A stretch of DNA of 64,000 nucleotides from Bacteroidales bacterium (GTDB lineage: Bacteria; Bacteroidota; Bacteroidia; Bacteroidales; Lentimicrobiaceae), in assembly GCA_024636955.1 (NCBI GenBank), contig JAGXGB010000029.1, positions 1 to 64,000 of the forward strand, in the 5' to 3' direction. The notes beneath the pieces were generated by a model. It was not told the origin of the DNA. It did no database searches and saw only the letters and a list, made by a program, of their open reading frames with translations. The position numbers and the translations under genes were made by a program. Of this stretch, positions 16,133 through 50,760 are shown one piece after another. Position 1 is the stretch's first letter; each line of letters opens with the position of its first letter.

Positions 16133-18982
16133 ATGACAAAACTAACTAAACTATTAACTATGGGAATCATGATCGGTTCACTGTTAACCAATCTGCCTGA
16201 AACTCTTGCCCAAAAAGCAGCGGGAGGTAACTTTAAGGTAGAATTTGAAAAGTATCAACTTGATAATGGTCTGCAGGTGGTTTTGCACCACGATGCGTCC
16301 GATCCCATTGTATCTGTTGCTATCCTGTTTCATGTAGGCTCAAGCCGTGAAAACCCAGGCAAAACTGGCTTTGCACACTTCTTCGAGCACATGCTCTTCC
16401 AAAATTCAGAGAATGTAGGCAAGGGCGTGTTCTTCAAAAAGATAGACGACCTTGGCGGTACATTCAATGGCGGTACCTGGAATGACGGAACCGTTTATTA
16501 TGAAGTTGTTCCTAAGGATGCCCTGGAGAAGATCTTGTGGATGGAAAGTGATCGTATGGGATTCCTCATTAACACTGTTACACAGGGCGCTCTCGACCGT
16601 GAGAAAGACATCGTAATCAACGAAAAGCGCCAGCGGGTTGACAATCAGCCTTATGGCCATGGTGATTATGTACTCGACCAAAACCTCTATCCACCGTCGC
16701 ACCCATACTCATGGCAGGTGATCGGGTCAATGGATGACCTTAGGGGTGCAACTCTTGAGGATGTTAAGGAATTCTATCATAATTACTATGGTGTAAACAA
16801 TGCAACTATGGTAATTGCCGGTGATTTCAACAGTGATGAAGTAAAGACGCTTGTTCAAAAGTACTTTGGTGAATTCAAAGCACGCAAAAAGCCTGAGGCA
16901 ATCAAACCTATGCCGGCAGTGCTAACTGAAACCAAAAAACTATACCATGAGGACAATTTTGCTCGTTTGCCTGAATTAACTATTGCAATACCAACAGTTG
17001 AGCACTACCATCCTGATTCATATGCTTTGGATGTATTGGCCGACCTACTTGCAGAAGGCAAGAAAGCGCCCCTTTATAAAGAGATAGTTGAAAAAAGAAA
17101 CCTTGCTCCAAATATTTCAGTGTACAACAATTCACAGGAATTAGCAGGTAAATTTAATATTAGTGTTAAGGCTTTTGAAAATACCAGCCTTGATGCAGTT
17201 ATGGAAGCTATCAATGAAGGTTATGCTCAATTCGAAAAAACAGGATTCACTGAATCTGACATGCAACGAATAAAAAATATCCGCGAAACTCAATTCTACA
17301 ACAGCATTTCCAGTTTACTTGGAAAGTCGTTCCAATTAGTTCAGGCTAATGTATTTGGAGGCGACCCTGCCCGCATGATGGATGACGTTAAGTTACTCAA
17401 TGCAGTAACCAAAGCTGATGTAATGAGGGTTTACGAGAAATACATCAAGAATAAAAACTTCGTAGCTACCAGCTTTGTACCTAAAGGACAAGCGCAGCTT
17501 ATTTTAGCTGGCTCAATAAAAGCTTCTGTTGTAGAAGAATCCATTGAAGATGCTGGCTCAGAATCAAAGGGCGGTACTGAAATAGCAGATGAATTCATGA
17601 GAACCCCTTCAACCTTTGACCGTAGTATAGAACCTGCACTTGGACCTAAACCATTGCTTTCAATTCCAAAGGTATACAATGCTAACCTATCGAATAACCT
17701 TGATGTATATGGCATTGAGAGTCATGAATTGCCATTGGTGCAGTTCTCCATAAGACTTAAAGGTGGACAGCTACTTGAGAATACTGATAAGGTTGGAGTT
17801 TCAAAACTTCTTGCTGACCTGATGATGGAGGGTACTAAAGATATGACCCCCGAGGAACTCGAAGAAGCCATAGGTCAACTGGGTGCTAAAATCAACATTA
17901 ACTCTTCATCTGAATTTATTACCCTTACTGCTAACTGCCTCTCGAGGAACTATCAGCAGGTGCTTGCTCTTGTTGAGAAGATAATGATTGAACCACGCTG
18001 GGATGCCATGGAATTCGATCGTTTGAAACAAGCTACAATAAGCGGTATCGTACAACGTGAAGCTAATCCTAATGCTATTGCGGGCACCATATTCTACAAG
18101 AAGCTTTATGGTGACAACCACATTCTTTCTTTCCCGGGATCAGGTACGGTGGCATCAGTTGAAAGCATTACCATGGACGATTTGCAGGCTTATTACGCCA
18201 AAGCGTTTTCTTCGTCTGTTGCCAGTTTCCATATAGCAGGAGACATAATGCAAGATGAAGTAATGAAATCATTGAGTACTTTGGAAAGCAAATGGAAGGC
18301 TACAAATGTGATCTTCCCAAAATATGACCTGCCTGCTCAAAATGAGAAACCAACTCTTTATTTTATTGATGTACCTAATGCAAAACAGTCGGTTATCATG
18401 ATTGGCTCACTAGCTGTTTCGCGCGACAACCCTGATTACTTCCCTGCAATGTTCGCTAATTACAAACTCGGCGATGGTTCAGGATCAAAATTATTTGAGG
18501 TGCTCCGACTTGAAAAAGGCTACACCTATGGTGCATATTCATTCCTTATGCCACGTGTTACAGTTGGTCCGTTTGTTGCAAGTTCAAGTGTTCAGTCAAT
18601 GTACACCCTTGAGTCAGTAAACCTCTTCCGCGAGATTATGACTACATATGGCATAGAATACTCTGACAGCGACCTTGAAACTACGCGCAATGCTATGATT
18701 CGCTCAAATGCAGGGAAGTTTGAAACAATAGGCAGCCTTATGGGAATGCTTCACGACATATCAACTTTCAACCTGCCGGATGATTATGTTAAGAAGGAAG
18801 AACAAATGGCAGAAAAGTTGACCCTTGATCAAGCCAAAGCCGCATATTTCAAATACATTCAACCTGACAAGATGGTTTATGTAGTTGTTGGTGATGCACG
18901 CACTCAGTTTGAAAGACTGAAAGAAGCAGGATTGGGCGAACCGATTATGCTTGATAAACAAGGAAATACTTTAAAACTATAA
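16133..18982 (+). CDS. Exported M16 family zinc protease, two-domain
   Basis: The 949-residue protein begins with a signal peptide (cleavage near residue 27, ETLAQ). The first M16 domain has the inverted zinc motif HFFEH (His82, Glu85, His86) and the downstream glutamates around IVINEKRQ. The second M16-like half (from about residue 510) lacks an HxxEH motif and is probably the inactive partner that closes the clam-shell chamber. Such periplasmic pitrilysin-like enzymes degrade peptides. A strong rho-independent terminator follows 55 bases after the stop. Confidence 0.92.
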   Translation: MTKLTKLLTMGIMIGSLLTNLPETLAQKAAGGNFKVEFEKYQLDNGLQVVLHHDASDPIVSVAILFHVGSSRENPGKTGFAHFFEHMLFQNSENVGKGVFFKKIDDLGGTFNGGTWNDGTVYYEVVPKDALEKILWMESDRMGFLINTVTQGALDREKDIVINEKRQRVDNQPYGHGDYVLDQNLYPPSHPYSWQVIGSMDDLRGATLEDVKEFYHNYYGVNNATMVIAGDFNSDEVKTLVQKYFGEFKARKKPEAIKPMPAVLTETKKLYHEDNFARLPELTIAIPTVEHYHPDSYALDVLADLLAEGKKAPLYKEIVEKRNLAPNISVYNNSQELAGKFNISVKAFENTSLDAVMEAINEGYAQFEKTGFTESDMQRIKNIRETQFYNSISSLLGKSFQLVQANVFGGDPARMMDDVKLLNAVTKADVMRVYEKYIKNKNFVATSFVPKGQAQLILAGSIKASVVEESIEDAGSESKGGTEIADEFMRTPSTFDRSIEPALGPKPLLSIPKVYNANLSNNLDVYGIESHELPLVQFSIRLKGGQLLENTDKVGVSKLLADLMMEGTKDMTPEELEEAIGQLGAKININSSSEFITLTANCLSRNYQQVLALVEKIMIEPRWDAMEFDRLKQATISGIVQREANPNAIAGTIFYKKLYGDNHILSFPGSGTVASVESITMDDLQAYYAKAFSSSVASFHIAGDIMQDEVMKSLSTLESKWKATNVIFPKYDLPAQNEKPTLYFIDVPNAKQSVIMIGSLAVSRDNPDYFPAMFANYKLGDGSGSKLFEVLRLEKGYTYGAYSFLMPRVTVGPFVASSSVQSMYTLESVNLFREIMTTYGIEYSDSDLETTRNAMIRSNAGKFETIGSLMGMLHDISTFNLPDDYVKKEEQMAEKLTLDQAKAAYFKYIQPDKMVYVVVGDARTQFERLKEAGLGEPIMLDKQGNTLKL

Positions 18983-19036
18983 CTTACAAATCAGTAATTG
19001 CAGCCGTTTCATAGATCTGGTTGCTATTAGTAAACG

Positions 19037-19065
19037 AAAAAAGCCTCTATTGAGGCTTTTTTTTT
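19037..19065 (+). terminator. Rho-independent terminator of the M16 gene
   Basis: A stem pairs AAAAAAGCCTC with GAGGCTTTTTT across a four-base TATT loop. It is followed by an uninterrupted run of T residues. Confidence 0.9.
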
Positions 19066-19137
19066 GTTATATACCATCCTGTGAATATTTCCTGATAATT
19101 ATATGGGCTCAAATCAAGTTCATAATCCATTGGATTT

Positions 19138-19225
19138 ATAAGCGTCTTTTAAGCGTTATACAAACGATGTTTAATCGTCTAAAGACGCTTATAAGACGCT
19201 TATATAACGCTTATGTATCGCTTAT
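19138..19225. repeat. Eight 11-bp repeats forming an inverted array
   Basis: Read in consecutive 11-mers from 19138, the sequence gives four left-handed units (ATAAGCGTCTT, TTAAGCGTTAT, ACAAACGATGT, TTAATCGTCTA). Four right-handed units follow (AAGACGCTTAT twice, ATAACGCTTAT, GTATCGCTTAT). The first left unit is the exact reverse complement of the first right units, and the others are near complements. No base is gained or lost between units, so the 11-bp register is strict over 88 bp. Confidence 0.88.
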
Positions 19226-19283
19226 GATGGTAATGAATCTTAAATGCATCATGAAAGCTTTTAATACACCCTTCGGTCATGGC

Positions 19284-19315
19284 AAATAAAAAAAACTCCG
19301 TCTATAAAGGCGGAG
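19284..19315 (-). terminator. Terminator of the minus-strand nucleoside-kinase-like gene
   Basis: On the minus strand, CTCCG pairs with CGGAG around a short loop and runs into eight or more T residues. It lies about 65 bases after the stop codon of the gene ending at 19381. Confidence 0.75.
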
Positions 19316-19380
19316 GCGGGGAACAAACTGTTAAGACCTGGAGGATCTTACCAAACATCAAAAAGAAAAGTAGGATGAAA

Positions 19381-19941
19381 TTAATTACCGGGAACGGAGA
19401 ACAGTGTTTGCTCTATAGATGTTTCAAGCTCTTCAACTGTATCATTATTTGAAAATACGAAATCCGCCATCTGCATGCATTTTCCTATATTCTGGTTGTT
19501 AGGATCGGAGGAGTTCATTTCACGACGTTCGTTTTCAATGAAAACATCATAGCTGATGCTGTCGGTTTCAGTTTTTCTTTTGAAGATACGTTCATACCTC
19601 AGTTCAGGCAATGCATCAACAGCAATTAGGTAAAAATTACCCTTTTCCCTGAGTGATGAAACCTCACCCGGTGTGCGGATGCTTTCTATAATACAGTTAT
19701 CGCCACTTAGTATTGCCTCTTCATATAACTGATCAACTATATAGGAAGGAGAATTCTCAGCACGCAGTTTATTAGCCACCGAAACCATGGAATCGCGGTT
19801 TACCTCAAGACCCTGTTCCTTGATCCTTTCAATAAGGAATTGCCTGACAGAGAGATGCCTGAAGTTCTTATGCTCCACAAGATAATCAACAATAGTACCT
19901 TTTCCCGCACCCAATGTGCCTGTTATTCCAATAATTAGCAT
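19381..19941 (-). CDS. P-loop nucleotide kinase-like protein
   Basis: The 186-residue protein starts with IIGITGTLGAGKGT, a Walker A loop, and continues with the LID-less kinase pattern of dephospho-CoA kinase and deoxynucleoside monophosphate kinase relatives (NCIIESIRTPGEV, FYLIAVDALPELRYERI). The RR...SDPNN segment late in the protein resembles archaeal-type AAA_18 kinases. The substrate cannot be named from sequence. A TAnnTTTG box 16-23 bases upstream of the ATG supports this start. It converges with the M16 gene and diverges from the PqqD operon. Confidence 0.75.
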   Translation of the reverse strand: MLIIGITGTLGAGKGTIVDYLVEHKNFRHLSVRQFLIERIKEQGLEVNRDSMVSVANKLRAENSPSYIVDQLYEEAILSGDNCIIESIRTPGEVSSLREKGNFYLIAVDALPELRYERIFKRKTETDSISYDVFIENERREMNSSDPNNQNIGKCMQMADFVFSNNDTVEELETSIEQTLFSVPGN

Positions 19942-50654: not shown

Positions 50655-50760
50655 ACTTATCATACTGTTTTTATACGGTTAGACTACGGTTACTCTACCT
50701 TGAGGGTAGAGTAACCGTAGTCTAACCGTAGTCTAACCGTATAGTATCTGTAGAGTATAT
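50655..50760. repeat. Inverted array of nine 11-bp repeats
   Basis: From 50706 the sequence reads GTAGAGTAACC, GTAGTCTAACC twice, GTATAGTATCT and GTAGAGTATAT in strict 11-bp register. On the left, 50655-50698 holds four 11-mers ending in GGTTAGACTAC and GGTTACTCTAC, which are exact reverse complements of the right-hand units. A 7-base loop (CTTGAGG) separates the arms. The central 25 bp on each side pair without mismatch. Confidence 0.88.

Follow-up and report, generated by a model that had tools for sequence, protein, structure and literature searches.

The window, the whole stretch of 64,000 nucleotides analysed here, carries a mirrored repeat array between an M16 peptidase gene on its left (16133..18982, plus strand) and a gene for an AAA_18/AAA_17 nucleotide-kinase-like protein on its right (19381..19941, minus strand). 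Direct reading of the sequence at 19138-19225 revealed an 11-bp unit in 4+4 copies in mirror orientation, and the observed array was confirmed as real. The left arm (19139..19177, minus strand) contains the cores TAAGCG, TAAGCG, CAAACG and TAATCG, which start, in the TAAGCG sense, at 19139, 19150, 19161 and 19172, respectively. The right arm (19186..19224, plus strand), in which CGCTTA occurs four times with starts at 19186, 19197, 19208 and 19219, is better conserved than the left arm. Between the arms lies a centre of 8 nt (19178..19185, no strand assigned). All steps within the arms are 11 bp. The third and fourth units of the left arm are degenerate, which leaves six exact cores out of eight. 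One ORF of 79 residues overruns the array. Downstream of the M16 peptidase gene, the terminator scan reported an intrinsic terminator on the plus strand (19036..19063). The imperfect stem at 19288..19316 carries a T run on the minus strand and could be the terminator of the kinase-like gene. The initial annotation had placed the array between two terminators; the scan found the plus-strand one, whereas the minus-strand one was unreported by the scan and was recognized by eye alone.

The array had been described as eight 11-mers, mirrored four against four in strict register. The coordinates of that description were right, yet the element is longer. An ungapped alignment of the nine copies in the same genome, one of them (L042) after removal of one base, defined a complete element, here called family A, of 112 bp (19126..19237, plus strand), consisting of a cap, four left units, the 8-nt centre, four right units and a second cap. 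The left cap, TCCATT (19126..19131, plus strand), is the mirror-equivalent of the right cap, AATGAA (19232..19237, plus strand). Since both caps are equidistant from the centre, the family-A unit was taken to be 112 bp. Four of the nine copies have an exact left cap, and in two more it differs by one mismatch; at the right end, eight copies have AATGGA or AATGAA. By inspection, the inner cores are 14 bp apart, start to start, in eight of the nine copies and 15 bp apart in one.

The genome from which the window derives (G000, hereafter the own genome; 3.22 Mb in 83 contigs, 93% complete) was searched with the array by BLAST. The search gave 15 matches at nine places, with an E-value of 1.5e-20 for the second-best place, and the array is therefore not a product of chance. 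A two-unit pattern with at most two mismatches gave 24 forward and 19 reverse matches in the same genome, as against 3 and 8 for its reversed control. The nine copies align from the centre without gaps, except for one extra base in one copy. The window array is thus one of nine family-A copies, which rules out a single-site reading. All nine copies are intergenic, and their neighbouring genes are convergent in four cases, codirectional in four and divergent in one. For 33 arrays of all families, the corresponding numbers are 5, 20 and 8; ORFs were called heuristically for this count, which leaves aside the array in the interval C42 of the sister species G008, split between two contigs. None of the 33 arrays is overlapped by a retained ORF of at least 80 residues, apart from one whose end shares 8 bp with such an ORF. 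The initial annotation proposed a genome search for further arrays between convergent terminators. Further arrays were recovered, but convergent genes flank only four of the nine family-A copies; a special role for convergent terminators thus finds no support, and we rejected the idea of a terminator or convergent-gene element.

A second mirrored array is present in the window at 50663..50760 (plus strand), between two co-directional genes. Its word is TAACCGTAGnn and its centre CTACCTTGAGGGTAG. This family, B, is represented at nine places of the own genome; at one of these, the array is about 60 bp away from a gene of the DUF6266 family described below. BLAST at an E-value of 0.001 gave no match to family B in 18 congeners. 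Arrays with its ACCGTA core were found at six places in G003 and, with four matches, at three places in G012. Another family, E (word CCAGTACAGGT), forms a mirrored array in G008 where the own genome carries family A. Each of the families counted has 3 to 9 copies.

We then ran a detector for period and mirror symmetry at lags of 5 to 22, in a strict and a looser setting. In 442,046 bases of the own genome, the strict setting detected six arrays at lag 11, six at the harmonic lag of 22 and none at any other lag; the contigs of this sample were partly chosen for their family-A arrays, and the family-B arrays in them were new. The looser setting added one own-genome array, at lag 14. With the strict setting, one mirrored array was detected in 212,876 bases of G008, at a locus fetched because it bears an array, none in 200,000 bases of G001, and one, in G012, in 327,387 bases of four other congeners. 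In the congeners, the looser setting yielded one hit each at lags 7, 21 and 22. The mirrored 11-bp arrays of the own genome and of some congeners constitute a genuine class; they form families, each with one word, scattered over intergenic regions.

Tandem repeats of other kinds were also seen. The 200 kb sampled of G001 contain tandem repeats of 7 and 8 bp (at L147, 2323-2968, and also within L142 and L143) but none at lag 11. Tandem 11-bp arrays with similar words occur in an IMG/VR contig, Caballeronia and Crocinitomix (L087, L088 and L089), although the pattern that yielded them itself required an 11-bp step; the DNA fetched for these three loci contains no DUF6266-like ORF. A virus origin of the arrays was considered and rejected: on viral contigs, one pattern led to a single locus, which by eye is not mirrored 4+4, and two further patterns gave no match.

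The distribution of family A was examined in related genomes, whose proteins, like those of the own genome, suggest Bacteroidota. The mirrored pattern was matched in two of the 19 genus genomes, the own genome and that of G008, and these two alone match it among 393 genomes of the order; looser BLAST added a weak match of 22 nt in G002. There are four family-A arrays in G008, with different spacers, and one of them is split by a contig break. At six own-genome sites the corresponding interval is assembled in G008 and the family-A array is absent from it, two of the six intervals holding one lone CGCTTA. One further site lies next to GAPDH, where the end of the G008 contig precludes a comparison, and for another the neighbouring gene was not found in G008. 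In the interval called C42, a family-A array adjoins a DUF6266 gene in both species. The arrays at the other three G008 sites are absent from the own genome. It had been anticipated that unrelated sequence at the same place in close strains would speak against a role for this place; at the level of sister species, the G008 interval matching the window site has no array, and a role tied to this particular place finds no support. About 1.6 kb of other DNA (L110, about 1115-2745) lies there between the orthologues of the M16 peptidase and kinase genes.

Family A probably predates the split between the two species, with most places differing. Similarity among family-A copies is 0.77 within species and 0.63 between species. 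The two C42 arrays, at 0.60, are no closer to each other than copies at different places (0.63). The likeness within species would reflect either concerted change or separate bursts. One intergenic region carries different words in the two species, A in the own genome (L047) and E in G008 (L116); this may point to favoured sites or to the replacement of one array by another in situ. Two G008 contigs (C75 and C162; ends of L104 and L106) stop inside one array, with an exact overlap. Arrays may break assemblies.

An all-versus-all comparison of the neighbouring genes yielded one recurrent family of small proteins. Proteins of 212-214 residues adjoin one array each of family A and family B in the own genome and of the sets in G003 and G012, with the array at the 5' side of the gene in all four cases, and the C42 array of G008 precedes a matching protein of 216 residues. 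In the own genome, the protein beside the family-A array (C42) has 214 residues and that beside the family-B array (C75) 212. In these five genome-family cases, one array is located upstream of a gene for DUF6266 (PF19781); all five proteins score 43.1-72.7 bits with the profile, the Pfam cut-off being 23.4. PF19781 was then searched over the genus independently of the arrays. This gave 31 genes in nine of the 19 genus genomes (own included), ten of them in the own genome and seven in G008, and none in 14 control genomes. All 31 genes could be placed, one as a fragment.

An upstream array was accepted if it had an 11-bp period, scored at least 22 of 33 and lay at most 450 bp upstream. Such arrays were found at 23 of the 31 DUF6266 genes, including seven of the ten own-genome paralogues, and on the downstream side at none of 30. 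The same definition was satisfied, among control ORFs of at least 150 residues, by 7 of 280 from the own genome, a rate that could include dispersed arrays, and by 2 of 487 from congeners (9 of 767 together; Fisher p 1e-30). When the five cases that had raised the idea were removed, 18 of 26 genes had an array (p 3e-24). The best of 13 other lags reached the threshold in 4 of the 31 upstream regions. Of the eight genes with no clear array, one is a startless fragment and another has only 183 bp of upstream DNA. There are 22 arrays for the 23 genes because two divergent DUF6266 genes share one. In 20 of the 23 cases, the mirrored partner exceeds the 95th percentile of the shuffle null.

The words vary among the paralogues, for example AAAAGGTAGAG, GACATAGAGAT, AAATGCGAACA and TACGGACTTGA, and number about 15 by eye. 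Protein identity correlates with word similarity (Mantel r 0.29, 0 of 5000 permutations), although only through pairs with at least 40% identity; below that value, r is 0.03. In the DNA examined, families A, B, C, D and E and the G003 and G012 sets each have further arrays of the matching word in their genome. A word at C132 in G008 also has one elsewhere in that genome, and GACATAGAGAT has one that is truncated where the retrieved DNA ends. Two other places that BLAST matched to the G012 word, in L266 and L248, turned out to hold no array. With tblastn (E-value at most 0.01), no DUF6266 remnant was detected at those dispersed loci that were examined, and the arrays therefore travel or persist without the gene. 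The motif TAnnTTTG, which we take to be the Bacteroidota promoter motif, occurs 14 times near the DUF6266 arrays against 6.3 expected, on either side of the array. The position of the array relative to the promoter thus varies, and a DNA-level role and a leader-RNA role are both possible.

DUF6266 proteins are about 215 residues long. Their first 50 residues are strongly basic, with a mean net charge of +7.2 (range 3 to 11, 30 proteins). Invariant residues are few (M1, G12, G66, G108 and W130 in alignment A1, which omits the 146-residue fragment L264), and so are conserved acidic or histidine positions; this conservation does not look like that of a nuclease. No solved relative was found by sequence, the best hit being a fibronectin domain at an E-value of 0.24. 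A profile scan of five of the proteins matched no transposase family and no response regulator, and gave weak matches to TraQ, GatZ and Mito_carr beyond PF19781. In the literature searched, no paper names DUF6266, and no described function was found for it. An origin from plasmids or phages was rejected, with one DUF6266 protein as the query: there was no match among plasmid sequences, and one small phage record (OP209177.1; L271, 1996-2604) contains a distant DUF6266-like protein, annotated as hypothetical and without an array (25.5% identity, 68% of the query covered).

How the mirror symmetry is maintained was analysed on the basis of the aligned copies. In family A, the arms of the same copy are no more complementary than those of different copies (0.644 in both cases, p 0.57). 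In family B, covariation was detected in the first two units (0.889 vs 0.842, p 0.0016). Selection for a simple hairpin or cruciform is therefore unsupported in family A and weakly supported in family B by this test, and the cruciform extrusion that had been offered as the reason for the mirror loses its ground in family A. The mean conservation over the nine copies is 8.5-9.0 in cores and 7.0-8.0 in spacers of the right arm, and 5.75-9.0 and 5.75-7.0 in the left arm, where the two ranges overlap. The second core position is G in 104 of 104 units (13 family-A copies). Since conservation of the word is seen at the level of single units, and the arms do not covary, the family-A mirror seems to be maintained by fixed words, not by pairing. 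For the other role suggested in the initial annotation, to hold a symmetric protein complex, the same two facts give partial support, and such a complex is still the best reading.

The DUF6266 genes, most of them with a differently worded array in front, point to a hitherto undescribed gene-and-repeat system made up of DUF6266 and mirrored 11-bp arrays. The parent copy of the window's family would be the one in front of a DUF6266 gene. On balance, we lean slightly towards the interpretation that the window array is a dispersed family-A copy, and that a DUF6266 paralogue would read its own word both at its own gene and at the dispersed copies. DUF6266, or a complex containing it, would recognize the word of its own array, with one subunit per 11-bp unit placed head to tail on each arm, and the two arms might join at the centre as a symmetric assembly. 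The anatomy of the array fits a protein bound head to tail on 11-bp units, for which PhoP provides a physical precedent: it binds cooperatively and head to tail to 7-bp motifs with 4-bp spacers, also when there are three or four motifs (PMC4832192). Binding of DUF6266 at its own promoter would lead to self-control. The dispersed copies, that in the window included, would be further binding sites, with a regulatory role near promoters; those away from promoters may be decoys, anchors or passive survivors of dispersal. On a broader proposal our judgement is evenly divided. According to it, the DUF6266 proteins would form a new family that binds nucleic acids sequence-specifically; each paralogue would have its own 11-bp word, read in the mirrored arrays by one subunit per helical turn, word and protein would change together, and the arrays would spread through the genome as private sites of their paralogue. 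The family-B covariation, a wobble bias in family A and the eight of 31 genes without a clear array are points against the preferred interpretation. Further points against it are the upstream regions in which another lag reaches the threshold, the dependence of the word-protein correlation on pairs of at least 40% identity, the varying place of the array relative to the promoter-like motif and the low similarity of the two C42 arrays.

There is another possible interpretation, in which the arrays are small non-autonomous mobile elements spread with the help of DUF6266, in the manner of REPIN/RAYT; the mirror would then represent the two ends of the element, and the window copy would be a functionless, decaying passenger. 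The arrays are indeed multi-copy, intergenic and lineage-specific, their places mostly differ between the sister species, copies are more alike within than between genomes, the caps resemble inverted ends, and the array spreads without the gene. The target-site duplication of a MITE, however, gave no signal over permuted flanks in the nine family-A copies, as 139 of 200 permutations reached the observed value. The five DUF6266 proteins scanned match no transposase family, and conserved acidic or histidine positions are few. In addition, the cores are on the whole more conserved than the spacers, a pattern not to be expected from passive decay. We consider this interpretation unlikely.

It could also be supposed that an RNA hairpin transcribed from the array is the functional molecule, both as the 5' leader of DUF6266 genes and as a stand-alone transcript, the 11 bp corresponding to one A-form turn. 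The predicted hairpins are strong (z -3.4 to -8.3, 12 folds), although folding is expected of any mirrored repeat, and TAnnTTTG lies upstream of the array in some genes. With strands taken as in the window copy, the minus strand outfolds the plus strand in 12 of 13 family-A copies, and most core mismatches read A-C or C-A on the plus strand and hence form wobble pairs on the minus strand (28 vs 1 in the own genome, 15 vs 1 in G008). Read on the minus strand, the left-arm cores have changed almost exclusively by C-to-T and A-to-G substitutions, and the right arms hardly change. The family-B covariation would also favour an RNA. On the other hand, the family-A arms do not covary, the spacer mismatches of the own genome have the opposite bias, with wobble favoured on the other strand (34 vs 9), and family B has no strand bias (18 vs 20); in G008, the spacers are biased slightly in the same way as the cores (2 vs 7). 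Family-A copies are found in both orientations relative to co-directional neighbours (two and two). A known RNA family was ruled out, as an Rfam search of the window at 18980-19400 gave 12 weak matches, none near the gathering score. The claim of the initial annotation that the array should act as DNA, not RNA, is thus favoured by the lack of covariation in family A, whereas the better folding of the minus strand and the wobble-type core mismatches there speak against it. A functional RNA seems distinctly improbable to us.

The chance is slight that the arrays are bound by a different regulator, such as an OmpR/PhoB-type winged-helix response regulator, and that DUF6266 genes are no more than frequent targets. 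The 7+4 spacing does equal that of PhoP-type sites. One regulator would need one word, however, and the many words, about 15 by eye, therefore argue against it; the word varies with the DUF6266 paralogue, and closely related paralogues have words in common. To our knowledge, operators do not typically show a mirrored 4+4 layout or spread over intergenic regions. Finally, a cruciform, an ordinary bidirectional terminator or a tandem-repeat accident is scarcely credible: an inverted repeat with strong predicted folding between convergent genes would suit it at the window site, but the family-A arms do not covary, a convergent setting is found for 4 of 9 family-A copies and 5 of 33 arrays overall, the strict detector gives only lag 11 and its harmonic, and the arrays are strongly linked to the starts of DUF6266 genes.

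The preferred interpretation, in which DUF6266 would read its own arrays, was further compared with known systems. ParR/parC partition sites, which in plasmid R1 consist of direct repeats of 11 bp, are recognized by a single protein family. They resemble the present arrays as short direct-repeat arrays; those described here are chromosomal, dispersed and mirrored, and have many words. OmpR/PhoB operators, as described for PhoP (PMC4832192), share cooperative head-to-tail 11-bp units, three or four in a row. They serve one regulator, whereas the present arrays are a dispersed mirrored family, and the spacing alone matches. Among the papers listed by our literature searches on 11-bp interspersed or mirrored repeats, nothing closer than the systems discussed here was found, and the searches on 11-bp binding sites gave known systems only.

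Among mobile elements, the nearest tandem-repeat MITE found is BrickBuilt of Porphyromonas gingivalis, which has intergenic, lineage-restricted tandem repeats and short inverted ends in 19 copies (PMC4596501). It differs in its 23-nt repeats, its long leader and tail and its IS5-family-like ends, and the available portion of that report describes no mirrored arms. As regards the terminal inverted repeats of MITEs, short and partly degenerate caps are present in the family-A copies and one family-E copy; none were evident by eye in family B. As regards an autonomous partner with the same ends, a three-unit pattern located family-A arms in the own genome and G008 at the mirrored places only, in assemblies that are 93% and 96% complete.

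REPINs are small inverted extragenic repeats, dispersed and with several families per genome, each tied to a distinct single-copy protein gene, RAYT (PMC3116915). The present arrays are likewise dispersed inverted extragenic repeats, and a cognate gene with the same repeat alongside was found here as well. RAYT, however, is a Y1 (HUH) tyrosine transposase, whereas the gene here encodes DUF6266, and the five proteins scanned have no Y1 match (E-value at most 1). Four head-to-tail 11-bp units facing four others are also unlike REPIN doublets. DUF6266, a family named in no paper searched, thereby gains a biological context that can be tested. The genus offers about 15 natural pairs, in which related proteins go with different DNA words in a fixed 11-bp geometry. 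If the proposed binding is true, these pairs would show how a small protein alters its DNA word, a long-standing question of protein-DNA recognition. The mirrored arrays and DUF6266 also provide, in addition to REPIN/RAYT, a second system of a gene with dispersed repeats, in which the protein is an unrelated one.
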